Assembly: GCA_030673845.1 (NCBI GenBank)
Contig: JAUTCQ010000021.1
Coordinates: 124,001 to 188,000, forward strand
DNA from: Verrucomicrobiota bacterium JB022
GTDB lineage: Bacteria; Verrucomicrobiota; Verrucomicrobiia; Opitutales; Oceanipulchritudinaceae
DNA length: 64,000 nt
Direction of reading: 5' to 3'
Below the pieces are notes generated by a model. The model was not told the DNA's origin. It saw only the letters and a list, made by a program, of their open reading frames with translations, and did not search any database. Of this stretch, positions 31,686-64,000 are shown one piece after another. Made by a program: the position numbers and the translations under genes. The number at the start of each line of letters is the position of its first letter. Position 1 is the first letter of the stretch.

Positions 31686-31796
31686 AAAAACGATGGCGTA
31701 AAAAGGGATGGGAGGGGCGTGAATCTGGTCTCCTTGTACGCCTCCCCACTGCTGGACGTACCGCCCCTCCCGTTGTCTGATACCTCAAAACCAAGA

Positions 31797-34154: not shown

Positions 34155-34295
34155 AGTAGGGGTAGTTTTGGGAGTTTGGGGAAGACCTTGCGACTATGAG
34201 GCGCGGGGCAGCGGTCGCCAAGGTCTGCCTGCACTCTGCTCAAATCCCCTCAGTTGCCGAGACGCGAAATGGTAGACAGTTGACTTTGTGTAAAC

Positions 34296-34325
34296 AAAGA
34301 AACGCCCGACTTGAACTGTCGGGCG
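34296..34325 (-). terminator. Rho-independent terminator of the GPH-GH43-GH43 operon
   Basis: Minus-strand stem CGCCCGAC/GTCGGGCG (34303-34310 with 34318-34325), seven-base loop, followed by TTTCTTTG. It lies just beyond the secreted GH43 stop and separates that operon from the TonB receptor gene. Confidence 0.75.
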
Positions 34326-34352
34326 CTTGGGATTCATCCTGCGCAAAAAGGT

Positions 34353-35381: not shown

Positions 35382-35459
35382 GAGGCGCACAGGCAAAGTA
35401 CTCCCCAGCCGGCACGGGAGGCCGGCCGGGAAGCGTTTCGGTGGTTCGGGGGGCAGAGA

Positions 35460-36398: not shown

Positions 36399-36407
36399 GG
36401 AAATGGC

Positions 36408-37781: not shown

Positions 37782-38161
37782 GTAGGGGTAGAGCGCAGGC
37801 GGAGCCTGTGGGGCTAAGGAGGCGGGATTCTGCGCAGCAGGAGTCAAAGCCAGCGCCCCGAGTGACAGGGCGCTGGCGATGCTGTTGCTACTCCTATTGA
37901 CGTGCAGAATCCCCTTTCAGCTTCGTCAGATAAGAAATTTGCGGGTTAAGACGACCGCGCTCAGGCTGCGGCGTCTGTAGGGGGCACAAAAACAGGGTCA
38001 GGGCATGACGCGGTGAAAGGGTTGGTTTTTCCGGGTGACCGTGGACCGTATGGCCCGCGGGTGAGTAGCGCACATCCCTACATGCGCCCTTCCCATCCCT
38101 ACCCCGCCGAAATTTCGCAAAAAAAATGGCCGCCATTTTCGCGACCGGAAGCGGCAGTGCT
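37782..38161. other. Intergenic region upstream of the GPH operon
   Basis: No gene is visible. On the GPH side there is a nested structure: GGGATTCTGC (37824-37833) inverted at 37904-37913 as GCAGAATCCC, enclosing a stem CCAGCGCCC/GGGCGCTGG (37850-37858 with 37868-37876). It may be a leader RNA structure. The other end holds the terminator of the kinase gene. I cannot place a promoter reliably. Confidence 0.5.
38119..38139 (-). terminator. Rho-independent terminator of the sigma-kinase operon
   Basis: On the minus strand AAAATGG/CCATTTT (38123-38129 with 38133-38139) with a three-base loop is followed by a T run (A run 38119-38126). It lies 22 bp beyond the kinase stop. Confidence 0.7.
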
Positions 38162-40378: not shown

Positions 40379-40390
40379 CGGCGCAAAAGC

Positions 40391-41074
40391 TCAGCTCTGG
40401 CTACTGCGGATCGACTGATAGAGCCAGGCTTTGGCGTAGGTCCACTGGCGCTCCACGCTACGCTCGCTCATGCCCATAGTTTCGGCCACCTCGGCGGTGG
40501 TGCAGCCCCAAAAAACCTTCAGCTCCACGATGCGGGCCTTGTCGGCATCGTGCTCCTGCAGGCGCTCCAGGGCCTCGTCGATCAACAGGATGTTCTCTTC
40601 GGGGGTGGTGGCCGCGAGGTCCAGATCTTCGACCTGCACGCGGGTCTGGTTGCCGCCACGTTTGAGGCGCGACTTGCGGCGGGCGTTTTCGATCAGGATC
40701 CGGCGCATGGCCTGGGCCGCCGCGCCAAAGAAGTGTGCGCGATTGGCCCATTGACGCGTACTGCCGCCGACTACGCGCAACCAGGCCTCGTGCACCAGCG
40801 CGGTGGGCTGCAGCGTCTGGTAATGGTATTCACGCGACATGCCGATAGCAGCCTGTCGGCGCAGGTCGTCGTAAACCATCGGGAGCAGGTCGTCGGCGGC
40901 CTGTTTGTCGCCGCTGCCTAAGGCACGGAGGCATTGAGTAATGTCGGAAACCGTCCGGTCGAGCGCGCGCTGAGCGGCTTGGGCAACGGTAGGCTGGCGA
41001 TCCTGAAGGGCGGGCCCGTCGTTGGCCGGGCGCAGGCGCAAGGAAAAATAGGCGGGGGAAAGGGTCGACTTCAT
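40391..41074 (-). CDS. ECF-type RNA polymerase sigma factor (TIGR02999-like)
   Basis: A sigma-70 family factor of about 227 residues with regions sigma2 (ALGSGDKQAADDLLPMVYDDLRR, then LVHEAWLRVV) and sigma4 (LKVFWGCTTAEVAETMGMSERSVERQW). It matches the ECF subgroup found in PVC bacteria next to Ser/Thr kinases. The first ~45 residues before sigma2 are an uncommon extension. ATG at 41074 is used; the alternative at 41137 lacks similarity and neither has a clear Shine-Dalgarno. No anti-sigma gene is adjacent, so the kinase may control it, by inference. Confidence 0.85.
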   Translation of the reverse strand: MKSTLSPAYFSLRLRPANDGPALQDRQPTVAQAAQRALDRTVSDITQCLRALGSGDKQAADDLLPMVYDDLRRQAAIGMSREYHYQTLQPTALVHEAWLRVVGGSTRQWANRAHFFGAAAQAMRRILIENARRKSRLKRGGNQTRVQVEDLDLAATTPEENILLIDEALERLQEHDADKARIVELKVFWGCTTAEVAETMGMSERSVERQWTYAKAWLYQSIRSSQS

Positions 41075-41476
41075 GGGGGGTGCAAGGAGGGGGTGTGGCC
41101 GCGCTTCCGCAGCCGGAAGGAACAGGGGGAGAAACAAAAAGCTGTGCCGGGTTCAAGACGGTAGGATACGAGGGGACGAGGAACCAATGTAGCTTGTCTT
41201 CGCGGCAGTAGGCCACAGCCGGAGAAAACCATCAACGTTAGGCGGCCAATGGGGCGGTGACAATAGGACGTAGCGCTGCATGAGGGTACACGGGAGGGGG
41301 TGATTCAGCCTTGGCTGAAGGTGTAATGAGGAGACTGTGCAGCCTCGATACGCTCGGGGGAGAACGCTGCCGCCATGTGCGCTACTACATGAGGGTATGC
41401 GGCGAGAAGCTGCTCAAACTATGTCGGCAGCTTATCCTAATTTTCGTAAAAGCAAAGCGAAATCTTCGCGTTGAGC
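41075..41476. other. Intergenic region between the sigma factor and efflux gene
   Basis: About 400 bp with no convincing gene; a short plus-strand frame at 41311-41520 runs into the TolC gene and has no ribosome-binding site. GCGAA/TTCGC (41457-41461 with 41465-41469) near the TolC stop, followed on the minus strand by TTTGCTTTT, may be a weak terminator. The promoter of the sigma-kinase operon should lie here but is not obvious. Confidence 0.5.
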
Positions 41477-43101
41477 CTACGGGAGCCCTGCCCCGCCGCG
41501 GTATGGCATGGGCAGCGTAACGCCTCGACGTTCCAGCAAGGTGCCCTCGGCCAGGTAGAGGTCGACCAGCGCAATGCGATACTGGATAATCGCCCCCACC
41601 CGCGCGATTTCCGCTTCCAGCAGGTCGCGTTGAGCCTGGGCGAGCTGGAGAGATGTGCCGCTACCGAGTTCGAAGCGGTCTTCCTCGGCGGTAACGGCTT
41701 GGCGCTGCAGCTCGACGGTGACAGCGGTCGCCTCGATCTGCTGGCGCAGACGCTCGACTTCGTTCAGCGCGAGCAATACGTCGAGCTGGATGACCTGGCG
41801 CAGGTTGCGCAGTGATTCCACCGCCTGGTCGCGGGCGGCGCGGGCGGCGAGGTGTCGACCTTCGGCGGCACGATTGCCCAGCGGCATGCTGAATTCGACC
41901 CCCGCCATCAGGTCGTACGTCTCATCGTCCATGCGGCGGAAAGAGCGCTCGACCGATTGCGCGTAGCCCGTCTTGCCGAGATCGAGGAACAAATCGAGCC
42001 GCGGAAGCAGGCCGTTGCGCGTTTGCAGGACTTCGAGGCGGTTCTGGCCAAAGAGGTTCTCCGCCTCCTTGAGGTCGGGGCGCGACTGGAGGGCCAGCTG
42101 GATGCGCTCCGCGCCGTCGCGGATGGGCTCGGGCTGCAAGGGCGGCGTCGAGCGGGTATCGATCTGCGTTTCGTTGAAGGAGCTGTTGGGCGGCAGGATG
42201 AGCTGGGCCAATTCGAGGCGTAGTTGATTGGACCGGCTGCGGGCGTCGATCAGGTCTTGCTGGCGGCGCGCCACCTCGGCCTTGATCGCAGCGGCATTGA
42301 TGGGGGGCAGCGTCCCGATCTCGATCTGGGTCTGGATCTCGTCGCGTTGCTGCTCGGCCACCGCCAGGGAGCGCTCGAAAATGGCAATTTCTTCCCGCGC
42401 GAGCACGTATTCCCAATAGGTCGTCTCAACTTCGGCCAGCAGTGCCTCGCTGAAGGCGGCCAGCTCATAGTAGCTCGCATCGCGCGCCAGCTCAGCCGCC
42501 CGGACAGCGGCTAGGTTGACGCTGGGGCCAAAGCCGCGCAGCAGGGATTGCGTGACGGAGAGCCCGAGCCGGGCCGACTGCTCTTCCTGCGTCCGGCTGG
42601 AGACCGAGCGCCCTTGCTCGACCGAGACTTCGACTTCCGTCCCCGTGGGCAGGGTCTGGCGAACGCCGACGGCGGCGTTGTTGTCGTTGCCGACCACGTT
42701 GTAAGAGCCCCCGGTGCCTCGGTCGGTTTCGGAGACGTTTTCTTCGTCGTATTGGTAGGAGGCGAAGATCTCCGGATCGAAGATACCACGCTCGGTCATG
42801 AGGAAAGCGTCGGCAATGACGGGCTCCAGCTCTTGCACGCGCAAGTTGCGGTTGTGCCGCAGGGCGAGAAAGACGGCGTCTTCGACCGTCAGCGCGTATT
42901 CGGTCGGCGCGGTGCGCACGGCGGCTTCGTTGAAGCTCGCCGGCGGCTGGACGGGCCCCGCGATCACCGGGTCTTCGACGCGGATTTCGCCACCCGAGGA
43001 GGTGGGGACGACCAGCGGGTCGGGCTCGACGCGGCTGGAGCATCCTGCCAGCCCGAGGCCGGCGATGAGGAAACAGGTGGTAAAGCAGCGGAGGCGAGAC
43101 A

Positions 43102-43102
<1 letters not shown>
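41477..43102 (-). CDS. TolC-family outer-membrane efflux lipoprotein
   Basis: A 541-residue outer-membrane channel of an RND pump. The N-terminal signal ends in a lipobox GLGLAGC (Cys about residue 21). Two OEP repeats with long amphipathic helices are visible (ALRHNRNLRVQELEPVIADAF near the start, the second repeat with its RPDLKEAENLFGQNRLEVLQ segment about residue 330). The ATG at 43102 overlaps the RND stop by one base. It is the last gene of the adaptor-RND-channel operon. Confidence 0.9.
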
Positions 43103-46170
<3,068 letters not shown>

Positions 46171-46172
46171 AA

Positions 46173-47318
46173 TCAGTCAGCGTCGATGGTGATCGCCGAG
46201 CCGTCTTCCAGCAGCTGCTGGCCAAGCGTCACCACTTGGCCAGACACGTTGCCCGACGTCACTTCCACCCGGTCGCCCTCGCGGATCCCGAGCCGTACCG
46301 GCTGCCAGGAAACGGTCTTGCCACCTTCATCGACCAAAAAGACCCCGTTGGTATTGTCGCGACGCACGACGGCGGCCTCCGGGATGATGATCGTGTCTTC
46401 GTGGTCCTGCATCACCAGCTCGGCCCGCACAAACATGCCGGGCTTAAGCCGTCCGTCGGCATTGGGCACCTCAAATTCGACCATGGCCTGGCGAGAGTTC
46501 TCGGAGAAAACCGGAGCGACCCGCACCACCTTGCCCTCGAAGGTCTGTCCGGCATAGGCGTCGGTACGAATGGTGACGGTGTTGCCGTTGGAGACGCGGG
46601 GATAGTCACGCTCCGTCACGTTTACCACGCCCAGTAGCGGGTCGAGGTTGACGATGCGGAACATCTCGTCGTTGACAGCGACCATGTCGCCTTCGTCTAC
46701 AAAGCGTTCGGCTACGATCCGGGTGGCGTCTCCTTCGCTCCATTCGGCGCGGACTTCGGTATACCCCAGCTGCAGGTGGGCCGTTTCCAACGCTGCTTCG
46801 GCACGGGCGACCTGGGCTTGGGCCACGGCCAGCCCGGCGCGGGCAGAGCGTTCACTGCCCAGGGCGGTATCGTATTGGGTATCCGACGAGACGCCACGCT
46901 CGCGAAGCTGGCTGACGCGCTGCATTTCGCGTTGGGCAATCTCCGCCCGGGCCTTGGCTTCCTCCAGGTTGGCCTCAGCCACGAGCAGGTCGGCCTCGGC
47001 GCGGCGGACTTCCTGCACGTAAGATTCATCTTCCAGCACGGCGACAATGCCCCGGCGCTCGATGGTGTCGGAAACGCGTACCTTTAACTGGTCGACGCGA
47101 CCGCTGACTTTGCTCGCAACCACAAAATCGGCACTGGCGCGCAGGGTGCCGCTCAAATCTCGACGTTCCGTAATGGTGCCCTTCTCAACCGTGAAGACTT
47201 CGACCGGAGCCGGTCGGCGTTGGGGAGCTTCGGTCGTCGCCTGTTGACCGCATCCGGCTAGCCAGATTGCGACCCCGGCGAATGCCACGGGAAGAGATAG
47301 AGTACGATAGAGAGCCAC
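46173..47318 (-). CDS. RND efflux periplasmic adaptor (HlyD/AcrA-like)
   Basis: A 381-residue membrane-fusion protein. The N-terminus is a lipoprotein signal ([12 protein letters not shown], Cys about residue 23). Then come a barrel-sandwich hybrid strand ([15 protein letters not shown]), a coiled-coil hairpin rich in Ala/Glu (residues ~95-170) and a beta-barrel. The start is GTG at 47318: it gives a proper n-region [10 protein letters not shown], whereas the longer frame would overlap the MFS gene end. An AGGA lies upstream at a reasonable distance. It is the first gene of the pump operon. Confidence 0.88.
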
Positions 47319-47448
47319 GGCTAAAAAAATCCTGTTCGTGGGGTAAGAACACAATTCAACGTGTTTAGTTCCGTAAAAAAGGCGGATAGGTGGAATTTCT
47401 GCTGGACAGATGGTCGCCTCACGCTGCGGAAGCGATGCCATTCCTAAG

Positions 47449-48915
47449 CTAACGACTCCGCGTGCGCAAGGTCGCTTCTTCCACATTTGTCGCGGGCTCG
47501 CGGATGCGGTTGGCCCGATTGCTCACGTTGTTGCCGTCGTCGGCTCGCAGCCCGATAAACGTAAGGGAAGAGATGACCGTGAATCCGCCGAGGATCCAGA
47601 AGGTGCGATGCAGCCCCGCAGCGAATGCCTGCGGTTCTGCCTGCTCCAGCCCGCCCAACAGCAGGATGGCGAGGAAGGAGGCGAGTGCGATGCCGAAGCT
47701 CATCGACATCTGCTGCCCGGTGCTGGTGATCGATGACGCGCCGCTGGTCCGCTCGTTGGGCACATCGGCATAGGCGAGCGAGTTGACGCTGGTAAACTGC
47801 AGCGACATGAGAAAGCCGTGCAGGAAGGCCAGCCCGACGATCAACGCGATGGGCCGGCCGGGCTCGATCAGCGAATACGAAGCGATTACGCCGCCCAGCA
47901 GCACCGTATTCCAGCGCAACGCGACCCGGTGGCCGATTCGCTTGAGGATGGGGCCCGTGAGGAATTTCATCAGGATGGCCGCCGCCGGGGCCGGCATCAT
48001 CAGCAGGCCTGCCTTCCAGGGCGGGAAACCCAGCCCGATCTGGTAGAGCAGCGGCAGGAGGAAGGGCATGCCCGCGATGCCCAGCCGCGTGACGAAGCCG
48101 CCCACCACGGAGATCCGAAAAGTGCGGACCTTGAAGAGGTCGAGCGCGAGCAGCGGGTGCTCCTTGGTGCGCGCGGTGATCACGTAAGTCACCACCAGCC
48201 CCACCCCGAGTGCCGCAATGAGGGCCACCGTCGCCATGGGCAGCGTGTGCTCGCCCAAGACCTCCAGCGCGAAGGCGAGCAGCCCTACCCCACTGCCAAA
48301 GAGCAGGAAGCCCACCCAGTCCAGCGGGGGCGAAGTCTCCGAGCGGTAGTCGGGCATGTGCTTGCTGGAGGCGAGCACGCCGGCAAAGCAGAACGGGAGA
48401 TTGACCCAGAAGATGAAATGCCAGGGCAGCCACTGGACAATCAAACCGCCCGCCAGCGGACCGAGCAAGGGCCCGAGCAGACCGGGAATAATGACGAAGT
48501 TGAGCGCGCGGATCAGCTCCGAGCGCGGATACGTCCGCACCATCGCAATCCGGCCCACCGGGATCATGAGCGAGCCCCCCGCCCCTTGCAGGATCCGGGA
48601 GGCCACCATCATGGGCAGGTTGACCGAAAGGCCGCAGAGCAGCGACCCGAGGGCAAAGAGCGCCATCGCACTGGTAAAGGTGCGGCGTGTGCCCAGCCGG
48701 TCTGCCACCCAGCCGCTGATCGGGATGAACACGGCGAGGCTGAGCGCATAGCTCGTGAGCGCAGCCTTGAGGCTCAACGGCTCCACACCGAGGCTCTCGG
48801 CCACACGGGGCGCAGCGGTGTTGAGGATAGTGGCGTCGAGCGTCTCGATGAAAAACGCGATGGCCACCAGCCAGGGCAGCACGCTGCGCAGAGTTGGCTT
48901 GGGTTGCGAATCCAT
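47449..48915 (-). CDS. MFS exporter, DHA2 (EmrB/QacA-like)
   Basis: A 488-residue, about 14-helix drug:H+ antiporter of the DHA2 type. Motif A (GWVADRLGTRRTF) after helix II and the motif LDATILNTAAPRVAESLG in helix I are typical of EmrB-like proteins. It should export lipophilic compounds or metabolites. The start MDSQPKP at 48915 keeps the cytoplasmic N-terminus short; MRHDLS at 48966 is possible and neither has a clear ribosome-binding site. It lies 130 bp before the RND adaptor on the same strand and may be cotranscribed with the pump operon. Confidence 0.88.
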   Translation of the reverse strand: MDSQPKPTLRSVLPWLVAIAFFIETLDATILNTAAPRVAESLGVEPLSLKAALTSYALSLAVFIPISGWVADRLGTRRTFTSAMALFALGSLLCGLSVNLPMMVASRILQGAGGSLMIPVGRIAMVRTYPRSELIRALNFVIIPGLLGPLLGPLAGGLIVQWLPWHFIFWVNLPFCFAGVLASSKHMPDYRSETSPPLDWVGFLLFGSGVGLLAFALEVLGEHTLPMATVALIAALGVGLVVTYVITARTKEHPLLALDLFKVRTFRISVVGGFVTRLGIAGMPFLLPLLYQIGLGFPPWKAGLLMMPAPAAAILMKFLTGPILKRIGHRVALRWNTVLLGGVIASYSLIEPGRPIALIVGLAFLHGFLMSLQFTSVNSLAYADVPNERTSGASSITSTGQQMSMSFGIALASFLAILLLGGLEQAEPQAFAAGLHRTFWILGGFTVISSLTFIGLRADDGNNVSNRANRIREPATNVEEATLRTRSR

Positions 48916-49031
48916 GAAGGAAGGGGCGGCCCACGATGAGCCGGTGGCGCTCAGGTCATGGCGCATCGGGGGGCGAATTGCCACCCGATTTTGTTGAGTA
49001 ATGCTACTACCTCAATCTTGAAGCAGTTACT

Positions 49032-49922
49032 TCAAGTCAGCGAAGCCCGGTAGATGCTCTCGATGGAGGCGTCGAGCGTCTTGGTAAACTCTTCGTCGCT
49101 CTGTTGCGCAGTCAACCCTTCGAGCAGCGCGCGGGAGAAGCTGGCAATGATCTTCGAGTTCTTGCTGAGCTGCGCATTTGCCTCTTCCCGGTCGTAACCG
49201 CCGGAAAGCGCCACCACGCGGACCACGTTGGGGTGGGCGCGGCAGGCTTCGTAATAGCCGGGCTGGCTGGGCAGGGAGAGCTTGAGCATCACCAACTCGT
49301 TTTCTTCCAGCTGGTCGAGCTGCTCGACGATGGCTTCGCGCAGGAGCTTCTCCGCCTCGGCCTTGGTGGGAGATTTGATGTCGACTTCCGGTTCGACGAT
49401 CGGCACCAGCCCCACCGCGCAGATGCGGCGGGCATATTCAAACTGCTGGGCAACCACGGCCTTTACCCCTTCGATGCTGGCCTTGTGGATGACGGAGCGC
49501 ATCTTGGTGCCAAAGATCCCTTCCTGCTTGGCCCGCTGCAGCAGGTGGTCGAGTCTATCCATCGGCTTCATCAGCTGCACGCCGTCCCGCTCTTTCTCCA
49601 TCCCTTGGTCGACTTTCAGGAACGGCACGATGCGTTTTTGCTCCCACAGGTAAGTGGCGGTGGGCTGCCCCTCGACTTTGCGCTCCATCGTGGCCTCAAA
49701 AAGGATGGCTCCGATGATGCGTTCGTCGAAGGCTTCGTTGCTGATGATGCGGCTGCGCATCTGGTGCACGAGGTCGTACATCTCGGCCTCGGTCTGGTAT
49801 GCATCTTCTTCGATGCCGTATTCGCGCAGCGCCTTGGGCGTAGAGCCGCCGCTCTGGTCGAGCGCGGCAATGAAGCCTTGGGCGGTGCGCATCTTCTTCA
49901 GTTGATCGTAAAAATTGGCCAT
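49032..49922 (-). CDS. Class I fructose-bisphosphate aldolase
   Basis: A 296-residue cytoplasmic class I aldolase that cleaves fructose 1,6-bisphosphate to dihydroxyacetone phosphate and glyceraldehyde 3-phosphate through a Schiff base. The typical N-terminal FIAALDQSGGSTPKALREYG, VPIVEPEV and the Schiff-base lysine Lys214 in VMLKLSLPSQ are visible. Its length is usual for the short bacterial class I group. The start is MANFYDQLKK with no competing upstream start. It is convergent to nothing and stands 115 bp above the MFS gene on the same strand. Confidence 0.95.
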   Translation of the reverse strand: MANFYDQLKKMRTAQGFIAALDQSGGSTPKALREYGIEEDAYQTEAEMYDLVHQMRSRIISNEAFDERIIGAILFEATMERKVEGQPTATYLWEQKRIVPFLKVDQGMEKERDGVQLMKPMDRLDHLLQRAKQEGIFGTKMRSVIHKASIEGVKAVVAQQFEYARRICAVGLVPIVEPEVDIKSPTKAEAEKLLREAIVEQLDQLEENELVMLKLSLPSQPGYYEACRAHPNVVRVVALSGGYDREEANAQLSKNSKIIASFSRALLEGLTAQQSDEEFTKTLDASIESIYRASLT

Positions 49923-50028
49923 GATGGGTCGGGGTTCCGTGCTGGCTTCAAACGCCGCATCGCTCCCCTACCCTAGGCGCGTTCCCGCTGCTTGTCGAAT
50001 TGCCACCGCGCGTTTGTCGAACGGCGCT

Positions 50029-51108
50029 CTAATCTGATGAACGGCCCGCATCGGCTGCGGCCTGTGCGCGGAGCGAAAGCTCGGCGGCCTTGAAGCTGTG
50101 CGCCTGCGTCATGGCCTGCTCGGTGCCGTGGAGTACATCGAGAATGTATTGGCCGAAGAAGGGAAAGCCGACTTTGCCCTGGCAATCGATCAGATGCTCG
50201 CGCTCCTGGTCGACGAGGTAGATCTTTTCGCCCCCGTGGTCTTGGCCCACGTCGAGCTGCTTGCGGATCTCCAGCGTGCCCTTGGTCCCGAGTGCAAAGG
50301 TGCGGCCATCGCCCCAGGAGCGCAGGCCGGCGGGGTTGAACCAGTCGAGGCGACAATAGCAGGACGCGCCGTTGTTCAACGTGAGCGAGGCTTCACCAAA
50401 GTCTTCCAGCTCCGGGTAAGCGGGGTTGGCGAAGTTCTCGACCCGGGCGAAGTTGACCACCCCATCGGTCGCGCCCGTGTAGTGGAGGAACTGCTCGAAC
50501 TGGTGCGAGCCGATATCGGTCAGGATGCCGCCGTAGCGGGCTTTCTGAAAAAACCAATCCGGACGACCGGCGGCGCCAAGGTTGTGTGGAGCGAGGTTGA
50601 TCACCTGCAGCACCTGCCCGATGGCCCCTTGGCGGATGAGCTCGCCTGCGTGGTAGGCGGCTTCACTCAACAGGCGCTCGGAGTAGCAGCACATGTAGCG
50701 CTGCCCGGTGTCGCGCGCAGCTTCCCAGGCCCGTTGGAGCTGGTCCAGCGTCGTGAAGGGCGCCTTGTCGGTCAGATACTCCTTGCGCGCCCTCAGCACC
50801 TGCAGGCCGAGGTCGCACCGCTCGTCGGGGATTGCGGCGGAGGTGACGATGCGTACCCGGGGGTCTTCCAGAATCTCCTCGAAGCACGCCACCCGCTTAC
50901 AATCGGGGTAGTGCTGCAACACCTTGGCCGCCTTGGCGTCGTCGGGCTCGTAGATCTTGGTCAGGGTGCCCCCGGCCTGCGCCAGACCGTCGATCTGCAT
51001 GTAGATATGGCCGTGCTCGAAATGGCTGGCGGCAAAACAGCATTCGCCGGGCGAGACGACTGGCTTCGGTTGGGGGCCCGAGGGCGCGTAGGGAGATAGC
51101 TGGGGCAT
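50029..51108 (-). CDS. Gfo/Idh/MocA family oxidoreductase
   Basis: A 359-residue NAD(P)-dependent oxidoreductase with an N-terminal Rossmann-like region (ITKIYEPDDAKAAKVLQHYP, then VRIVTSAAIPDERCDLGL), the conserved TDKAPFTT strand where family members have EKP, and a C-terminal substrate domain. It probably oxidises or reduces a sugar or inositol-type substrate. The N-terminal glycine motif GxGxxG is not visible and the substrate cannot be named. The start MPQLSPYAPSG is the first codon of the open frame. The 50-Asp end is followed by 106 bp before the aldolase gene on the same strand. Confidence 0.85.
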   Translation of the reverse strand: MPQLSPYAPSGPQPKPVVSPGECCFAASHFEHGHIYMQIDGLAQAGGTLTKIYEPDDAKAAKVLQHYPDCKRVACFEEILEDPRVRIVTSAAIPDERCDLGLQVLRARKEYLTDKAPFTTLDQLQRAWEAARDTGQRYMCCYSERLLSEAAYHAGELIRQGAIGQVLQVINLAPHNLGAAGRPDWFFQKARYGGILTDIGSHQFEQFLHYTGATDGVVNFARVENFANPAYPELEDFGEASLTLNNGASCYCRLDWFNPAGLRSWGDGRTFALGTKGTLEIRKQLDVGQDHGGEKIYLVDQEREHLIDCQGKVGFPFFGQYILDVLHGTEQAMTQAHSFKAAELSLRAQAAADAGRSSD

Positions 51109-55973: not shown

Positions 55974-56050
<77 letters not shown>

Positions 56051-56060
56051 ATTTACCGGT

Positions 56061-56095
56061 AAAAGCCGCTGATTTTCAGCGGCTTTTATTTTTGA
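56061..56095 (+). terminator. Rho-independent terminator of tRNA-fMet
   Basis: A strong stem AAAAGCCGCTGA (56061-56072) with TCAGCGGCTTTT (56076-56087), followed by ATTTTTG. It lies 10 bp after the CCA end. Confidence 0.9.
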
Positions 56096-56656
56096 CCAGA
56101 TTTCTGGCATGCTCATGCGTCGGGACGTTTGCAACTTTTAACACCGGTGAACACCCCTGAACACGTCCCAAACTTGGGACAATGTCCCAAGTCCAGCCGG
56201 CAGCGTGTCCCAAGTCTCTGAGCCCGCTGATGGCGCGGGCTTGCGGTGCAAAGCACGTTAATATGTCGCAATGGCCCGTGTTTGTGATGCTCAAAGTCTG
56301 TGGGGAGGGCATTACCTTGCAGTTTTGACATCTGAACTCCTCCAGTCCCGGCGTGCAGCCTCTGTCAGCTACCAACACTATTGCCAGCCTCGCTGCTTCT
56401 ACGGTTTTGCCACCGAACCGAACTGATGTGCTACTGGAAAATGCGTGAGGAGCCCCTCTAGCGATGTTAAAGGCGGGGAGCGCCCTGGCAGTTGTCCTTT
56501 CGGCTTCAACGTCTATGCTGACAGCACCAAATGATCCACTAACAAGTCCCCGACTGCGAGATACGCCTGAGGGCCGAGGACAGAGGCTTTGGCCAGAGGC
56601 ACAGAATAGCCGCTCTGGCGCGTTGATATAACCAGCCTCAGACCTCTTAACCGTAA
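56096..56656. other. Non-coding left flank of the integrase-bearing element
   Basis: About 560 bp with no convincing gene; the only frame over 90 codons (56076-56378, minus) overlaps the tRNA terminator. It holds three direct copies of GTCCCAA (56165-56171, 56184-56190, 56207-56213), the last two extended to GTCCCAAGTC, and one inverted copy TTGGGAC (56174-56180). These could be recombinase or regulator binding sites. The composition is visibly poorer in G+C than the left flank. Confidence 0.5.
56165..56216. repeat. Clustered GTCCCAA repeats
   Basis: GTCCCAA at 56165, 56184 and 56207 and its inverse at 56174; the first two face each other around AC. Spacings of 19 and 23 bases between direct copies suggest protein-binding sites near a recombination end. 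This is inference. Confidence 0.5.
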
Positions 56657-58003
56657 CTAGTGGACGCCATCAGGCTTGCCCCCAAACCTTCGGAGTATCT
56701 CCGCTCGGATGATCTGCCAATTTTCCGAGTTCATCTTCTCCACTTCGGCCAGGACCTGGTCACGAGCGTCCGGCACTGAAGCAGGAAGACCAGTAATGAC
56801 AGTAGGCAGCTTACTGAACGCCTGCCTTGATTGGTCCAGGCTAAGCTGAATGTAGCGATTGATAATGACCTCAACCGTGTTGTTGCCCACAACCTTTTGC
56901 AGGACCGAAATAGGGACGCCACTGGCCACCGCCAAGGTGATAAAGGTCGTTTTAAGCGCGTGAAATCCGAATGTAGACGCGCGGCGACTGCCTTTTTCTC
57001 GTACGACCTGCAAGCTCTTCTCGTCCGCATCGTCAAGATTGAACCCGATCGCCAGCAGGAGCTCCTTTAGCCGCTTGTCAAGCAGTTTGGTATTTCGGGA
57101 ATACTGCTTTGCCACAGCGGGATAAACAAAGTCTTCAGGGTTACCAACTCCCCTACTGATCAGAACGTTTCTTAGCCTTGGGAACAACGGAATAGCGACC
57201 TCCTTTCCTGTTTTCCGAGTTTTTATCCTTATGCATCCCCTATTCAGATCTACCTCTCTCCACCGGAGCTGGCAGCAATCTACCAACCTCATGCCCGTGC
57301 TAACACCTACCGCGATTAAGAAATGCAACTGTGGATCATCCTGGCAGCGGTCCAAGATCACCTCTATCTCTTGTTGTGAGAACGCACGCCTTGAAATTGA
57401 GTCGTCCTCTAGCTCTTCTACTTTTTCAAATGGATTCCGACTGAGATACTCATAATATACCGCCGCGTTGTAAAGCGCCGAGAGAATTCCCACGCGCTTA
57501 TTGATTGAACCGTTTGTCAGCTTTCCATCATCCAGATCACTGACATATAATTTGCAGTGGCGCGACTCCACTGTCCCTAAATCCTCAACCGAGAATTTTT
57601 GCTGCATATAGCCCGCAAACATGCTCAACTGACGCCGAACCTCTTCGCCATGTTTTGGGCTTTTACTCTTGCGTTTGCGCGGCTGCTTAAGCCAGAGAGC
57701 ATAGAGCTTGTCCGTTGTTAACCTTTCTGGGGTCGGCGCCAATTCGCTATGACCATTACGGCTCCACTCAGCTAGCACCTGAGCGGGGTTGTTGGATCTT
57801 TGCAAACGCGCAGCCAGTTTAGCCTCCTCTTCCAGAGCCAGCTTGCGCGAGGCTTCAAACTCAGCGTCACCTGGGCTGGAAATGCGATACCCCTCTGGTG
57901 GCACCCCTGCATACTTGCACCTCAAAGCAATCTTTTTCCTCTTTCCATCCATGCGCATGACTGAAAAGAAATAGGGACTTCGACTAGATATTTCTAAGCT
58001 CAT
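56657..58003 (-). CDS. Divergent tyrosine recombinase/integrase
   Basis: A 448-residue phage-type integrase with an N-terminal SAM-like DNA-binding region (about 95-195) and a C-terminal catalytic domain. Catalytic positions are Arg239 in STGMRLVDCCQLRW, Lys264/Lys267 in the beta hairpin, His348 in FHALKTTF, and Tyr384 in INRYIQL. The second conserved Arg is Lys351 (H-A-L-K), and the usual His of the GH box is Asn374 (VVGNNT). It either belongs to a divergent subfamily or has reduced activity. It is translationally coupled (ATGA) to an upstream helix-turn-helix gene, about 600 bp from the tRNA. Confidence 0.88.
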   Translation of the reverse strand: MSLEISSRSPYFFSVMRMDGKRKKIALRCKYAGVPPEGYRISSPGDAEFEASRKLALEEEAKLAARLQRSNNPAQVLAEWSRNGHSELAPTPERLTTDKLYALWLKQPRKRKSKSPKHGEEVRRQLSMFAGYMQQKFSVEDLGTVESRHCKLYVSDLDDGKLTNGSINKRVGILSALYNAAVYYEYLSRNPFEKVEELEDDSISRRAFSQQEIEVILDRCQDDPQLHFLIAVGVSTGMRLVDCCQLRWREVDLNRGCIRIKTRKTGKEVAIPLFPRLRNVLISRGVGNPEDFVYPAVAKQYSRNTKLLDKRLKELLLAIGFNLDDADEKSLQVVREKGSRRASTFGFHALKTTFITLAVASGVPISVLQKVVGNNTVEVIINRYIQLSLDQSRQAFSKLPTVITGLPASVPDARDQVLAEVEKMNSENWQIIRAEILRRFGGKPDGVH

Positions 58004-58311
58004 CTTAGCTTTTTTGTTTGCCGCGCAGGGCGCATGATTCGGAGGAATTGGTCAACTGTTTCAGGCGTCAACTTTCCGGCACACCCCCTGTGAAGCAAGA
58101 TACCATGACGCTTGGCCTCAGCATATAACGACGTCCGGGAGGCTCCCAGCACCTGGGCGAGCCGTGCAACCGTCATTGGCCTTGCCTCCGGATGCATCAT
58201 TCGCTCCTCCGAGTTCTCCAGCGCGTCTAGCACGCGCTGGCGCTGCAGTTTTCCAACCGTTTCGTCTCCTGTTATAGCAAGCTCGATCAGAGCTCTTGTC
58301 GTTTCTTTCAT
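58000..58311 (-). CDS. Helix-turn-helix protein, possible excisionase or regulator
   Basis: A 103-residue protein with a clear helix-turn-helix around MTVARLAQVLGASRTSLYAEAK (about residues 46-66), followed by a short basic tail. It overlaps the integrase start by 4 bp, so both are expressed together; a role as recombination directionality factor or repressor of the element is plausible but not proven. Its composition is closer to the integrase than to the host genes on either side. Confidence 0.78.
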   Translation of the reverse strand: MKETTRALIELAITGDETVGKLQRQRVLDALENSEERMMHPEARPMTVARLAQVLGASRTSLYAEAKRHGILLHRGCAGKLTPETVDQFLRIMRPARQTKKLR

Positions 58312-58445
58312 ATGCTATATTCTGATCTTCGTTCAGAAAAAACGTAAACGTCCCTTATATATCTGATTTTCTGAATCTTACGCAAAAGTCGGACTTTTCC
58401 GTCTTTCGATTGCAACCTGCAAAACAACAACATATACCATCAATA

Positions 58446-59111
58446 ATGCTCAGGTTAACGGATGCACCAGTGACTCATGTTTCCGCCAGCTCTCTTCGTC
58501 TTGATCTCCATCGCCAGCTCAGGACCAGAGACCTAGGCAGCGATATCAACTGGCCTATGGACTATCAGTACTACCGTTGTATAATTGACCATTTCCAGAC
58601 CGTTACGTCCCGCTTGGTTACAGAGATACTGCGTGACGGCTTTAAGACCCCTCTTTTGGTCCATGGATCTACCATCGTCCACGGGTTTTTTCGTTTTCAC
58701 GCGATCCAGCAGATCATAGGCCGAGATCAACAGTGGCCCGGGATGAAGGGGCCAGACCTTATCCCTTGTGTAAGACTCAAATGGACGCCCAGTAAACAAT
58801 CTAAAGATCTGATGGCTATTAGCATTAGCGAGAATTGGACTGACAAAAGATCACACAGCTTCGAAAGGAAGCAGCGAATACTGCTGATTCTTGCTGCTCA
58901 GCTGTTAAGCACCAACCGCTACATAGACTGCGCAGGACGGCCCAGAAGTCGCTGCAAGCCATTGCGTAAAGCACTAGCGGAGCTAACAGGGGCCTACAAC
59001 AAGGAGATCAAACTTTACTTACCCGGTCGCTACGCGATTGATCAAGAAGGCTACCTGACTAGCAGGATGAAGGGCAACTTAACAAAAGTGCTTGGCCCTA
59101 GAGAATATTAG
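58446..59111 (+). CDS. ParB N-domain-like protein
   Basis: A 221-residue protein I place only tentatively. The segment EILRDGFKTPLLVHGSTIVHG-FFRFHAI, then LIPCVRLKW and the ISENW segment, follow the ParB/Srx N-terminal pattern (helix, G-x-x-x-P-x-x-V, GxxR, ENxxR-like region), with GFFR in place of GERR. A helical tail resembles ParB linker regions. ATG at 58446 is used; a TTG at 58410 is the alternative. It is divergent from the HTH-integrase pair and shares their low G+C, so it belongs to the same element. Partitioning, regulation or a nuclease role all remain open. Confidence 0.55.
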   Translation: MLRLTDAPVTHVSASSLRLDLHRQLRTRDLGSDINWPMDYQYYRCIIDHFQTVTSRLVTEILRDGFKTPLLVHGSTIVHGFFRFHAIQQIIGRDQQWPGMKGPDLIPCVRLKWTPSKQSKDLMAISISENWTDKRSHSFERKQRILLILAAQLLSTNRYIDCAGRPRSRCKPLRKALAELTGAYNKEIKLYLPGRYAIDQEGYLTSRMKGNLTKVLGPREY

Positions 59112-59222
59112 GGGTTGTAGACGAATTCTGTCTGTTCTCGCGATTAGGAATGAAGCCTAAGGTAAACGTAAACTAAAGTAATAGCAGGACGTAGACGCTA
59201 AACATGCCATGGGCGATACGCC

Positions 59223-59252
59223 AAAAAGCCGACGGCTGGTGTGGCCGTCGGC
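59223..59252 (-). terminator. Rho-independent terminator of the PEP-CTERM gene
   Basis: Minus-strand stem GCCGACGGC/GCCGTCGGC (59228-59236 with 59244-59252), seven-base loop, followed by five T (A run 59223-59227). It lies 28 bp beyond the stop. Confidence 0.85.
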
Positions 59253-59280
59253 GAGGAAGACGCAAAGTTCCGCTATCGCT

Positions 59281-60078
59281 TCAGGCGCGGCGGCGGCGCC
59301 AGGCGGCGAAGCCGAGGGTGAAGAAGCCTGCGGCGAGCGCGTAAGTAGAGGGCTCCGGAACGGCGGCAGTCGAGACGACATCGCTCCAAGAGGTGCCGAC
59401 GAGGTAGTTATCGAGCGCATAGGTGCCGGAATCGACACTGGACCGTAAACGTAGCCCCACGCCGCCCACCTCGTTGATGAGCGTTCCGTTCGTCGACTCC
59501 ACCGACGTCGAAAGCTCGTCTGTTGGATCGATCCAGAGGGTTGAAGTGCCCGTGGAGAGGTCGTAGCGAGTGACGATGAGGTAGGCCGTGTCCAGATCGC
59601 CGGCGGTGGCCGTTTGCCACGTGGCCTGGCTGGCACTGGAGGTGTTGGTGATGCCCCATTGCAGGCCACCGTCGCTCAAGCGATAGGTGAGGCGGCTCGC
59701 GCGGGTACCGGTGGAACCTTCAGCAGTCAGGAAGGCGATGTAGCCTGCGGAAGAGGTGGGAGCAACGGACGCTTGGAACTGGAAGCTGGTGTAGACAAAG
59801 CCGGTGGTGGCCGAGCTGGAGAGCGCGGCGCCGACTTCGCGGTTGGTGGAGCCTCCGATGGCTGAAAACTCCGCCACCAACTGCTCGTCCACCACCCGGT
59901 AGGTTTGTGCGTAGGCCGAGTCGAGAGTCGACCAGTTGCCACCCGCCACGGAGACAAGCTCGCCATCCATGTAATCGAAGGAATCCGAAAGGAGCACGGT
60001 GGCACTCAGTTGCGAGGAGAGAATCAGGCCGGCAATGACGGCCGCCAGAGGAGTGAGAATGGGGTGCTGTGAGTTCAT
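59281..60078 (-). CDS. PEP-CTERM sorted exported protein
   Basis: A 265-residue exported protein. The N-terminal signal peptide is followed by a beta-rich, Ser/Thr-rich domain resembling lectin-like or concanavalin-type sandwiches (FDYMDGELVSVAGGNW near the start). The C-terminus VPEPSTYALAAGFFTLG followed by a basic RRRR is a PEP-CTERM sorting signal, cut and transferred by an exosortase. The start MNSQHP at 60078 begins the signal peptide. It is divergent from the beta-helix gene; both carry an upstream TCAATAAAA motif. Function unknown. Confidence 0.88.
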   Translation of the reverse strand: MNSQHPILTPLAAVIAGLILSSQLSATVLLSDSFDYMDGELVSVAGGNWSTLDSAYAQTYRVVDEQLVAEFSAIGGSTNREVGAALSSSATTGFVYTSFQFQASVAPTSSAGYIAFLTAEGSTGTRASRLTYRLSDGGLQWGITNTSSASQATWQTATAGDLDTAYLIVTRYDLSTGTSTLWIDPTDELSTSVESTNGTLINEVGGVGLRLRSSVDSGTYALDNYLVGTSWSDVVSTAAVPEPSTYALAAGFFTLGFAAWRRRRA

Positions 60079-60163
60079 AGGATAAGCCTGTTGCGGGGAG
60101 TAGATCCGCAGCGAGGTGCCCGCAGGCTGAAGGACTCGCAGCCGAGCGCTCAACGGCAGCGCC

Positions 60164-60178
60164 GCTTTTATTGAAAAA
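60164..60178 (-). promoter_or_regulatory. TTTTTCAATAAAAGC motif upstream of the PEP-CTERM gene
   Basis: Read on the minus strand, this matches CTTTTCAATAAAAGC at 63416-63430 and the TCAATAAAA core at 60211-60219. It ends 86 bp before the PEP-CTERM start. Confidence 0.5.
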
Positions 60179-60206
60179 CGAATCTCACGGCACGTCACCT
60201 CGACCA

Positions 60207-60223
60207 CTTCTCAATAAAAACGC
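60207..60223 (+). promoter_or_regulatory. CTTCTCAATAAAAACGC motif upstream of the beta-helix gene
   Basis: Contains the TCAATAAAA core shared with 60164-60178 (inverted, 33 bp away) and 63416-63430. It ends 78 bp before the start of the beta-helix gene. Probably a regulator site. Confidence 0.5.
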
Positions 60224-60300
60224 TCCTACCCTCGCCGGCGATGTGGACCACCGGCAGATCCAAAAGGGACACAGCGGAATCTACCCCACCCTTTTACTCC

Positions 60301-63300
60301 ATGCGTTTTACCCTCCCTCTCCTTGGCGCCTTCCTGTCTGCGGCAGCCTGCCACGCCTCGATCACTGGGCCCGATGGGCTCCAATACCCCGACTGGACAC
60401 GAGCCGGGATTAACGGCGGCATTCCTGCGGTGGCTTCGCCCGCAGTTGACCTGACTGTGCACGGCGCCGACCTGGAAGACGATGCTGCCGCAATTGAAGA
60501 AGCCGCCGCCAGCCTCACCGGCGGAGGTGTCGTCAACCTTGGAGCGGGAACCTATTACCTGGACCGGCCGGTCGTGATCCGCCAAAGCGGTGTCGTCCTG
60601 CGAGGAGCAGGCCAAAATGCAACGCGGATCGTCTTTCGCTGGAACGGACCAGAGAACAATCCCGAGATTCTTTGGCCAGCACCGGGCAGCAACGTCTACA
60701 AGAACTCGTGGATTCAGGCCTTTGCGGATCCGCAGGGGCTGAAAAAGATCTCGATCCTGGTGAATGGGGTCGTGGTGCAATCGGCTTCTCGACTGAAAGA
60801 CGATGAACCCATCTGCAGCCTCTCAACCAACGGTCAAAAAATCCTAACCAAGGCGGGCGGCACTGGCAGTGTCACCCTCACCGTGCAAGTGGACTACTAC
60901 GAGAAGCCCACTCGTAGCACTTCGCAAACGATCCAGCTGCAGGCGACCACGGACGGCCCATGGATCTTGCCCAATGAAAGCGGAGGCGTCGGACTGTTGG
61001 GAGCCATTACGTTTGCAGGCAGCCAGCCCACCTTCAACAACACGATTTACTCGCAGCGGACCTTAAAGCAATCGGCGATCCGTGGGAGTGAGGTGCTGGA
61101 ACTCGGCTCCGGCCACGGTTTCGAGGTGGGAGACAGGCTGGAGATCCAGGCTCCGCCGACGGAACGCTGGAACGCCGAAACAGGGAATCAGATCACCTTT
61201 GGGACACACCGGGCCAATCAATATAAGGTTGTCGCGGTAAACGGCAGCAAAGTCGTTGTCGATGCGCCTTTGCGGATCGACTTTCCCATGGAAGATGGCG
61301 CTTTCGTGCGGCAGCTGGATCCCATCGAACGCTGCGGGATTGAAAACCTGACGCTGGAGCAGACGAGCGATCTTTGGGTCTGTGGTGTGTTGTTCAGCCA
61401 GAGCTGGGAATGCTGGGCGCAAAACGTGACCGTCCGAAAGGCTGGTCGCCACCCGCTCTACATGGTCAGCTCCAAACACGGAGAAATCCGCGACTGCACG
61501 ATGATCGACGCCGGCTGGAAGGGCCATGCCGGCAGCGCCTACGTCGGTTGGGATCAGTCATACGACTGCCTGATGGAAAACGTGACGACGGCCTTCCTGC
61601 GTCATGCACCCCTGTTCCAGTGGGGCGCGGCCGGCAACGTGATCCGTAACAGCACCTTCTACGGCAGCGACGCGCAATTCCACGCCGGTTATACGCACGA
61701 AAACCTCATCGAGAACTGTGTCGTGCTCTCCAACACTGGAGACGGAGGGTATGGGGGCGCGCTCTACTCCGCTAGCGACACCAGCCACGGTGTCAACGGC
61801 CCGCGCAACGTCATTTACCATTGCGACTTCAGCGCGCCCAACGACGGCTACTACAATGGCGGGGCGTGGTTTGGCGGTGGCAACGATGACTGGATGATAT
61901 TGCACAGCCGCTTCATGCTCGACCACGAGGGCGCAATCTATCTGCGCGATCGGAGCCGTGACCACCTGTTTTACCACAACGTCTGGGCGTTCGGCGAACC
62001 GGGTGGCGGGGTGCATTACGACAATGAGACCTCATCCGGAATCGAGATCACCGGAAACGTCTTTGACGGATTGGCCGCAAGCGAACTGGCCAGCGGGCTC
62101 ATGCAACCGGCACTGGCTTCCGACAATACTTTTCTCGACCGCACTGAACCAGTTGTCTTGGAAAGCGCTGGTTTCGAAGCCGCCCTGGCAGGCTGGACAA
62201 CCGAGGGAAACGGCGCGCTCACCACGACAGAAGCGGCACGGGTCGGCACGTACGGCCTTCGGCTGACTGACTCTAATACCGATACCGCGGCGAGCGTATC
62301 TTCAGCGGTCTACCCAGTTGAACCGGGGCAGACCTGGCAAGCCCGCGCCTGGGTGCGCTCCGTCGAGGCTTCCTCGCAGGCAGGCGTGCTCGAACTGCAA
62401 TTTGTGAACGCCTCGGGCATGGTCTTGACCGGCTACAACAAGGTAATCAAGGACTACTGGACAGCATGGCGGCGCATCGCGGTGAATGGAGACGCACCAC
62501 CAAATGCGGCTGGCGTCCGGGTGGTATTGAGGACTTACGAGAACCGCATTTCGACCGTCGACTACGATGGTATCGGATTGGCGCGAGTTCCCGTTGCGCT
62601 CGCTAATCCCGGCTTTGAATGCGGTCTGGTATTTTGGTCAATCGAAGCTGGTGAACCTCAGGCTTCCGCCGATGCCGCCTACACGGGAGGGCGCGGCCTG
62701 GAGCTCGTCAACATTGGCGAGGCCGTAAAAGTAGTGAGCCGTGCCATGCCTGTCGTTGTGGGAGAGACGGCGCAGATTCGCATCCGCGCGAGTGTGGTTG
62801 ACGGGCAGGGCTTTGCCGTTGGATTGCGCTTTGTGGATCGCGATGGCGCCCTCATTATGGAGACGCTGCACCTGCTGCCCCCAGGCCCCGCTCCTTGGCG
62901 CCAATACGTGCACCGCGCGATGGTTCCCGCAGGCTCGGCCACGCTGCAGGTTATCCTCATGGCCGAAGCCGAAGGCAGCGGCAGCGGCAGCGCCTACTTC
63001 GACGATGCTTTTGTACTGACCGCGCCCGCCTTGCCTGAGGCTCCGGTTCCTTCGATCTTTGCGTGGCAAAAGGAACCCAACCCCGCCCTGGCGCGCGGAT
63101 TGGATGGAACGCCGATAGGGCTGAAATTCGCTCTTGGCCTCGGACCAGATTCGGATCTGGGCGATCGAGGATTGCAGATCGAAGCCGAAGGCCCCGTATG
63201 GACCCTTTCATGGCGGCAACCCAAGGCGCGCGACGGGTTCGGGCTTGAGTTGCAACGTTCGACCGACCTTCGCACTTGGGACGCTGTATACAGCACCGAA

Positions 63301-63390
63301 CAGGAGGCCGACGCCGATGCGCTCGTCGAACACGCGGCTGAAGTTCCTGCCTGGGGCCAGCCGACCTTTTTCCGCCTGGCGGTGCCCTGA
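60301..63390 (+). CDS. Secreted right-handed beta-helix protein with carbohydrate-binding-like modules
   Basis: A 1029-residue secreted protein. A signal peptide (MRFTLPLLGAFLSAAACHAS) is followed by a pectate-lyase-like right-handed beta-helix (about 40-630; GGGVVNLGAGTYYLDRPVVI and VIRNSTFYGSDAQ are typical coil segments). Two CBM4/9-like modules (about 635-755 and 770-915; note NPGFECGLVFWSIE) follow, and a C-terminal ~90-residue region whose ALGLGPDSD then WTLSWR and LELQRSTDLRTWD pattern is common in Verrucomicrobiota. It probably binds or cleaves a polysaccharide; catalytic residues cannot be assigned. ATG at 60301 follows a 223-bp divergent gap. Confidence 0.85.
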   Translation: MRFTLPLLGAFLSAAACHASITGPDGLQYPDWTRAGINGGIPAVASPAVDLTVHGADLEDDAAAIEEAAASLTGGGVVNLGAGTYYLDRPVVIRQSGVVLRGAGQNATRIVFRWNGPENNPEILWPAPGSNVYKNSWIQAFADPQGLKKISILVNGVVVQSASRLKDDEPICSLSTNGQKILTKAGGTGSVTLTVQVDYYEKPTRSTSQTIQLQATTDGPWILPNESGGVGLLGAITFAGSQPTFNNTIYSQRTLKQSAIRGSEVLELGSGHGFEVGDRLEIQAPPTERWNAETGNQITFGTHRANQYKVVAVNGSKVVVDAPLRIDFPMEDGAFVRQLDPIERCGIENLTLEQTSDLWVCGVLFSQSWECWAQNVTVRKAGRHPLYMVSSKHGEIRDCTMIDAGWKGHAGSAYVGWDQSYDCLMENVTTAFLRHAPLFQWGAAGNVIRNSTFYGSDAQFHAGYTHENLIENCVVLSNTGDGGYGGALYSASDTSHGVNGPRNVIYHCDFSAPNDGYYNGGAWFGGGNDDWMILHSRFMLDHEGAIYLRDRSRDHLFYHNVWAFGEPGGGVHYDNETSSGIEITGNVFDGLAASELASGLMQPALASDNTFLDRTEPVVLESAGFEAALAGWTTEGNGALTTTEAARVGTYGLRLTDSNTDTAASVSSAVYPVEPGQTWQARAWVRSVEASSQAGVLELQFVNASGMVLTGYNKVIKDYWTAWRRIAVNGDAPPNAAGVRVVLRTYENRISTVDYDGIGLARVPVALANPGFECGLVFWSIEAGEPQASADAAYTGGRGLELVNIGEAVKVVSRAMPVVVGETAQIRIRASVVDGQGFAVGLRFVDRDGALIMETLHLLPPGPAPWRQYVHRAMVPAGSATLQVILMAEAEGSGSGSAYFDDAFVLTAPALPEAPVPSIFAWQKEPNPALARGLDGTPIGLKFALGLGPDSDLGDRGLQIEAEGPVWTLSWRQPKARDGFGLELQRSTDLRTWDAVYSTEQEADADALVEHAAEVPAWGQPTFFRLAVP

Positions 63391-63415
63391 ACCCACAGAG
63401 AGATAACGATCCTGG

Positions 63416-63430
63416 CTTTTCAATAAAAGC
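63416..63430 (+). promoter_or_regulatory. CTTTTCAATAAAAGC motif upstream of the last gene
   Basis: Third copy of the motif, ending 97 bp before the start at 63528. It lies just after the stop of the beta-helix gene. Confidence 0.5.
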
Positions 63431-63527
63431 AGTGCTCCGCTCGTGCCATAACCCGGGGCATCCTAGCATCTGGCCATTCGAAGCAGCGCTGCCCAGGCAG
63501 CTCATCCCCAACCCCAAAGACTCCCCT

Positions 63528-64000
63528 ATGAATCCCTTCAGCCCTACATATCGTCGCAGTCGTACCTTGCATCGGCTGCTGACAGTCGCCGCGACCTTCG
63601 GTGCCGCATTTTCGTTGCCGGCGCGCACCCTCATCGAGTTGAGCGACGCCCACGCCTCCGAGTGGCGGCTATTTGTGCCGTCGAAATATGCCGATTGCGG
63701 CGCTTCTTTTCAGATCGACTCGGGCATTGCCTTGATGAAGTCCGACGAACTGGCCCGTTTTGCCCTGCAGTCATCGCTGGCGGCGGTCGAACCGGGGCAG
63801 CCCTGCCATTACAAGGCGCGGATTCTGATTACACCGCAGTCGGAGCTTGAACGCAAATCCCCCGGCGTGGTGCTGCGCCTGACTTACTACAATGCGGACA
63901 AGAAGCCGCTGGACAGTGAGCACCTGCACATCGGGATCGGCGGCGAGACGGCTACCGTTGCCGCCATCGGCAACCTGAACCGCAAAAGCTGGCCCGGCGG
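63528..64000 (+). CDS. Partial secreted protein, cut by the window edge
   Basis: An open frame from ATG 63528 to the end of the window (157 codons, no stop). The N-terminus MNPFSPTYRRSRTLHRLL with the following hydrophobic stretch to LPAR is a signal peptide. The mature part is beta-rich (RILITPQSELERKSPGVVLR, then LTYYNADKKPL), suggesting a carbohydrate-binding-like or polysaccharide-related N-terminal domain; no family can be assigned from this fragment. Its upstream motif links it to the preceding two genes. Confidence 0.75.
   Translation, partial: MNPFSPTYRRSRTLHRLLTVAATFGAAFSLPARTLIELSDAHASEWRLFVPSKYADCGASFQIDSGIALMKSDELARFALQSSLAAVEPGQPCHYKARILITPQSELERKSPGVVLRLTYYNADKKPLDSEHLHIGIGGETATVAAIGNLNRKSWPG

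Follow-up and report, generated by a model that had tools for sequence, protein, structure and literature searches.

Genomic islands that enter tRNA genes by means of tyrosine integrases are a well-known general kind of element, and the enzymes that move them work with a catalytic set of Arg, Lys, His, Arg, His/Trp, and Tyr. Here we analyzed a 64,000-nucleotide stretch of verrucomicrobial DNA (the window; positions 124001–188000 of contig C21 of the source genome, G000, so that window position 56051 is C21:180051), in which an integrase gene, a helix-turn-helix (HTH) gene, and an orphan open reading frame (ORF) lie at 56051–59200 next to a tRNA-Met (CAT) gene. We conclude that this three-gene stretch is very probably the tRNA-side end (attL, the left attachment site) of a mosaic genomic island of ~91.7 kb in an Opitutales-type verrucomicrobial chromosome. 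The locus resembles the known tRNA-targeted islands in that an integrase lies by the 3′ end of a tRNA gene, a far repeat of the tRNA tail is present, the 3′ part of the tRNA gene is replaced, the cargo is mosaic, and base composition is odd at the ends; it is unlike them in that the integrase lies on the attL side, its 3′ end pointing to the tRNA, and has two catalytic residues replaced. Islands at tRNA genes are an ordinary and known class of DNA that moves or once moved.

The last 45 bp of the tRNA gene, from the anticodon loop to the 3′ end, are repeated exactly and on the same strand 91,708 bp downstream. This far copy (C21:271714–271758) was found by searching the source genome with the tRNA region, and the two copies form the only exact pair in a self-comparison of C21:179001–274646 (E ≤ 1e-8), within which no other tail match longer than 14 bp was present. 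Hence an integrase adjoins a tRNA gene whose tail recurs at 45/45 bp on the far side and, as this tRNA is followed by another insert in a congener (see below), we take 56051–59200 to be the end of a ~92-kb island. The original prediction, made without database searches, had described a tRNA-targeted integrative element, and it was right that the element begins at the tRNA 3′ end. The downstream direct repeat that it proposed to look for exists as well, but at a distance of 91,708 bp and not near 59 kb, so that its picture of a small element ending at ~59.2 kb did not hold. An ungapped scan of C21:180051–188000 gave a best tail match of 23/45, which equals the mean best of 200 shuffles; this agrees with the earlier report of no tail repeat at 59.1–60.3 kb, and a right boundary near 59.2 kb was rejected for want of an above-chance tail copy there. 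A minimal satellite-like element, also suggested earlier, had to be given up, since the PEP-CTERM-like and beta-helix genes beyond the stretch fall within the same att-bounded interval. A tandem array of elements was rejected, there being no internal tail copy and only one integrase of this family between the att copies (the scan could miss unrelated integrases). A phage satellite was rejected in view of the 91.7-kb interval, in which the scanned genes are mainly metabolic and defensive and one is a terminase gene (PF05876). We hold that the att copies delimit the interval, which one or more events may have filled. The features of the window are as follows.

55974–56050, plus strand: tRNA-Met (CAT), the target gene, whose 3′ part is the attachment site (ARAGORN; sole full-length match in its own genome)
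56006–56050, plus strand: attL core, 45 bp, with an exact repeat at G000:C21:271714–271758, beyond the window (sequence searches)
56051–56094, plus strand: element-borne hairpin and T-run directly 3′ of the tRNA, replacing the native terminator (minimum free energy −26.7 kcal/mol, z −6.8)
56657–58003, minus strand: tyrosine recombinase/integrase, 448 amino acids, divergent, in which K takes the place of the HxxR arginine and N that of the third catalytic His (profile searches, alignment)
58000–58311, minus strand: helix-turn-helix protein, 103 amino acids, predicted to be excisionase-like (a recombination directionality factor; weak similarity to HTH genes coupled to the integrase family)
58446–59111, plus strand: orphan ORF, 221 amino acids (233 from a TTG at 58410; ORF list, no homologues)
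59281–60207, minus strand: cargo, secreted protein with a PEP-CTERM-like end (ORF list)
60241–63390, plus strand: cargo, right-handed beta-helix/carbohydrate-binding protein that opens a polysaccharide-use block (profile scan)
56051–64000, no strand: in-window part of the island, which extends to G000:C21:271758 (window position 147758 if extended; att repeats)

The tRNA-Met gene is the single tRNA that ARAGORN called, and from its overall sequence we take it to be of the initiator type. The three ORFs beside the tRNA were found where they had been placed, with the HTH ORF overlapping the integrase ORF by 4 bp and the orphan transcribed divergently from the HTH gene. They had been said to begin right after the tRNA, which needs correction: the integrase stop codon is ~600 bp away from it. 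Their lower G+C was borne out (0.46–0.55, compared to ~0.60–0.67 in both flanks): along the profile, G+C falls from ~0.63 on the left to ~0.50 in the stretch and is back to ~0.64 near 59.25 kb. At third codon positions (GC3) the integrase, HTH, and orphan genes have values of 0.57, 0.58, and 0.55, respectively, versus 0.86 for two measured genes left of the tRNA.

The same tRNA is occupied differently in Puniceicoccaceae bacterium 5H (G001; its contig C1 is taken to be WOUP01000001.1), the sole other genome of the genus compared. Left of and through the tRNA, G001 and the window align over 4,648 bp at 85.3% identity; after it comes a different insert of 22.7 kb, ending in a 51-bp copy of the tail. 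This insert shares with the window the target tRNA, the integrase family (28% identity; alignment A1), and a terminator of its own after the tRNA, but has its integrase at attR (the right attachment site) and carries a TrwC-type relaxase and ArdC; no cargo was shared with the island at the DNA level (blastn). Aligned stretches of 367 bp that start in the two tail copies (G000 C21:271714; G001 C1:475907) are 82.6% identical, homology past both copies extending for ~320 bp. It opens with a terminator: the DNA just 3′ of each copy starts with a strong hairpin (TGAAGGCCCG...CGGGCCTTC), and a closely similar hairpin directly follows an uninterrupted tRNA in genomes G009 (93% over tRNA plus hairpin), G007, and G008 (86%). 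Since the hairpin beyond the tail copies is of the native type, these copies mark the tRNA's native 3′ flank, now displaced, and a single site has taken up two different inserts. The original prediction had turned on whether relatives keep an empty site. A differently filled site was found in G001 and tRNA–terminator junctions in G009, G007, and G008, and a fully syntenic empty site was not among them. Conservation of the three genes in place across relatives, which would have spoken against an insertion, was not found: the orphan occurs in one of 177 genomes (its own) and integrase relatives are at most 33% identical, while the HTH gene was not searched genome-wide.

New terminators accompany the inserts. 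In both G000 (56051–56094) and G001, the restored tRNA runs straight into a hairpin and T-run that the insert brought with it; in G045, the hairpins behind the tRNA and behind its tail copy are almost identical (L059 and L047 rows), and at locus L116 a hairpin that may be insert-borne is also present directly after the tRNA. Replacement terminators fit an element that keeps an essential tRNA gene functional. We propose that a tyrosine integrase recombined the attP site of the element with the 3′ part of the tRNA-Met gene, and that the element came with a terminator and with a tRNA 3′ end identical to the one it replaced, by which the tRNA would have stayed whole; the displaced native tail and terminator would now mark attR, 91.7 kb away.

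The integrase had been recognized as a tyrosine recombinase and is one (PF00589, 8.9e-15; phrog_1, 7.4e-43). A search of 177 genomes returned relatives at E below 1e-30 in 10 other genomes, with identity of 33% at most. From a scan of genome_contigs, with two peptide patterns that exclude the two catalytic positions in question, 80 of 91 relatives were kept; their loci overlap with genomes of the 177-genome search, and the locus counts given here are not independent, as L132 is nearly a copy of L133 and one genome contributes several loci. Record titles name Verrucomicrobia, Lentisphaerae, Kiritimatiellae, their subgroups, or the ‘PVC group’ (Planctomycetes, Verrucomicrobia, Chlamydiae) for 70 of the 80, only ‘bacterium’ for nine, and Bryobacterales for one. 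A tRNA-fMet tail match (at least 20 nt) lies within 2.5 kb of the integrase match in 40/80 loci and further away in three. Under a stricter rule, from which four loci with no usable ORF were dropped, 36/76 had fMet, 19 another tRNA call within 500 bp, and 21 neither. The tail was on the integrase 5′ side in 35 of the 36 fMet loci, 81–700 bp from the match start. L116 alone among these 36 shares the order seen in the window: its HTH gene overlaps the start of the integrase gene, whose 3′ end points to an intact tRNA-Met; the overlapping HTH–integrase pair recurs in L116 and L118. On the integrase tree fMet use is clustered (15 changes versus a shuffled mean of 25.9), although not in one clade. 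By these loci, the family is a PVC-group one often found at tRNA-fMet.

When 77 integrases are aligned, the window protein shows Arg I (R239), Lys (K264), His II (H348), and Tyr (Y384) in place. It has K351 where 72/72 relatives with a residue have R, and N374 where 72/72 have H (4 rows gapped at each position), so that the second Arg and the third His of the active set are replaced by K and N. Among the 71 columns with conservation of 90% or more, it departs from the others at 24, compared to 9 for the next worst row and 2 for the median row, and its branch is the longest by far (4.38), too long for it to be placed in the tree. Judging from the alignment, loss of catalysis after insertion is the likeliest reading. 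The gene is open, but with two of six catalytic residues lost, the island's own integrase would now be unlikely to excise it, and the island probably stays in place unless an enzyme acting in trans moves it. The remnant proposed earlier thus survives only in another sense, as an integrase without two of its catalytic residues.

Several observations weigh against a single island delimited in this way. Past ~320 bp right of attR, the G000 flank matches contig C29 of G001 and not C1, and a 611-bp segment inside the island (C21:257221–257831) is 91.8% identical to the extreme end of C29. G009, G007, and G008 show no synteny beyond tRNA plus hairpin in the ~1.5 kb examined on each side, for which reason no fully syntenic empty site was found. 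GC3 is near that of the host (0.67–0.80) for most genes of 183–258 kb, compared to a median of 0.80 for 26 large ORFs to the left. The attR orientation prevails in 31/36 fMet loci (one of them, L109, called as a whole tRNA by ARAGORN) versus the attL side in the window. Finally, no relaxase or conjugation gene was recognized among the island genes scanned, a subset of the ORFs. Right of the site, C1 of G001 partly matches G000 contig C9. The right-flank mismatch indicates that at least one of the two genomes was rearranged at the border, and with the DNA right of the far repeat rearranged between them, the interval may be composite.

The likeliest rival explanation, to which we give somewhat less than an even chance, is such a composite: an element of an ordinary size of ~17–20 kb, made of the low-G+C left 3 kb and the low-G+C right 13 kb with restriction genes, inserted at the tRNA, and ~74 kb of near-host DNA was later placed within it by rearrangement or insertions. 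It is compatible with our reading of one att-bounded island, and the odds of the two overlap. GC3 is low at both ends (0.53–0.57 on the left; 0.47–0.63 for most genes of 258–271 kb) and near-host for most genes between, relatives have four inserts of 7.2, 16.7, 18.2, and 22.7 kb at this tRNA, and the rearrangement right of attR would suit it too. However, the middle is itself mosaic, with a low-G+C block at 212–224 kb, and the two 20-kb middle stretches tested are absent from the congener, which indicates that they are not shared chromosome. Absence from G001 was judged on C21:184–204, 222–242, and 252–261 kb, with 40 of the 84 to 171 first-look candidates scored for the long queries and coverages summed by hand. 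For 184–204 and 222–242 kb there were only short matches, none longer than 1,014 bp (at 63%), which together covered ~1.7 kb of the first 20 kb and ~1.8 kb of the second, while a control of 20 kb left of the tRNA (window 31001–51000) was covered over ~17.7/20 kb at 72–80%, across several G001 contigs. The 9-kb query at 252–261 kb had a single match, 611 bp at 92%, at the end of C29. Since the cargo is a mosaic of polysaccharide use, SIR2–HerA, terminase, error-prone polymerases, and restriction with bSEFIR, later insertions between the att copies are likely.

It is unlikely that the altered integrase is still active, through unusual chemistry or a changed site, and the island mobile. Its ORF is intact over 448 amino acids, with Arg I, Lys, His II, and Tyr kept, and the HTH ORF is open as well; yet two residues invariant in relatives are replaced, 24/71 conserved columns are broken, and the branch is very long (4.38). 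Less likely still is a separate 3-kb element or remnant (integrase, HTH, and orphan) that was inserted after, or left over from, an earlier event to which the distant tail copy is due: the sharp G+C step at ~59.2 kb and the position of the integrase at attL, versus an attR-oriented tail on the integrase 5′ side in 31/36 fMet relatives, would favor it, but there is no above-chance tail copy at or near 59.2 kb, the interval holds a single integrase of the family, and the relative at L116 has the same attL-side arrangement. One can speculate, as a long shot, that the module is now a domesticated non-cutting recombinase which helps to stabilize the ~92-kb island and the displaced terminator by binding the att region, with the orphan as a new partner, and that its family is PVC-wide and has repeatedly used initiator-type tRNA.

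Weak similarity links the HTH protein of the window to those encoded next to the L118, L137, and L138 integrases (blastp 1.6e-4 to 1e-3). Its match to the excisionase family phrog_66 is weak (0.043), and the HTH proteins of L116 and L118 match HTH_17 below its cut-off. Going by these similarities and by its overlap with the integrase start, the protein would most likely be the directionality factor of the integrase.

The third ORF is probably a real gene by its length, being longer from its TTG start (233 amino acids) than the longest ORF in each of 1000 mononucleotide shuffles (maximum 223). It had been labeled ParB-like, a name that goes back to a resemblance seen by eye near ‘GFKTPLLV...HGFFRFHA’; beyond this motif, neither profile nor sequence comparison supports a likeness to ParB/Spo0J. 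The protein had no family match in Pfam, NCBIfam, PHROGs, or PADLOC. A PF02195 search of its own genome returned two other loci, including the chromosomal ParB at 5.6e-33, and not the orphan. ParB identity was rejected, as profile comparison with eight checked ParB rows scored 11.7, below the best of 60 shuffles (22.7). No homologues were found in 176 other genomes, plasmids, phages, or the 80 integrase loci, nor in genome_contigs or viral_contigs, where the searches reach close relatives only; a PDB sequence search gave no usable match, and an AlphaFold model made without an alignment was uninformative (predicted local distance difference test, pLDDT, 32.8).

The products of the cargo genes scanned include beta-helix, pectate-lyase-like, and GH2 proteins, SSF transporters, TonB plug proteins, a heparinase-like protein, a melibiase, a LacI-type regulator, and Gfo/Idh oxidoreductases. 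An error-prone DnaE-type polymerase scored above its NCBIfam cut-off and a Y-family-like polymerase below the cut-offs. Two of the island beta-helix genes contain inverted 1.6-kb copies that are 71% identical (L010:385–1987 and 6411–8016). In low-G+C DNA at C21:215512–218523 (L011:12512–15523), a SIR2-domain gene is followed by a HerA-type ATPase gene, both matching below NCBIfam cut-offs; they resemble the SIR2–HerA anti-phage pair. For the terminase gpA gene (PF05876; C21:221395–222573; L011:18395–19573), G003 and G005 have relatives at 67% identity, and contig C29 of G001 has a fragment. A type I restriction operon (C21:260522–268567; L014:3522–11567) has two specificity genes; its HsdS and HsdR genes are separated by one that is bSEFIR-like. 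Near attR, at C21:269762–270874 (L014:12762–13874), lies a second orphan of 370 amino acids with an HFH motif seen by eye. It may be a relaxase of the HUH type or a replication protein, but it matched no family or PDB entry convincingly. On contig C29 of G001, many ORFs at ~31.8–35.8 and 47.0–48.5 kb repeat ‘HPHAGGEY’/‘SPPAWGWT’, which resemble translated repeats of the CRISPR (clustered regularly interspaced short palindromic repeats) kind.

Inserts running from a tRNA-Met to a tail copy were also seen at G006:C1:567669–574941 (7.2 kb), G018:C12:40937–57698 (16.7 kb), and G045:C2:213717–232019 (18.2 kb). Those in G018 and G045 resemble the window island in being bounded by a tRNA-Met and a copy of its tail, with a related integrase in G045 and no integrase match at 1e-30 in G018; unlike it, they are only 16.7 and 18.2 kb long and carry MobA/VirD2-type relaxases (PF03432). 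Partial tRNA-Met copies are clustered at G014:C369:9–329 and G037:C93:81338–81949, and could reflect repeated insertions, decayed att sites, or tRNA clusters.

In literature searches, none of the titles listed linked Verrucomicrobia, integrase, and tRNA. The present locus is a reminder that a G+C step can mislead as to the border of an element: what had been a puzzling 3-kb patch is recast as the end of a large, delimited island. More broadly, it points to tRNA-Met(CAT) as a gene at which one integrase family has inserted repeatedly in Verrucomicrobiota and relatives.

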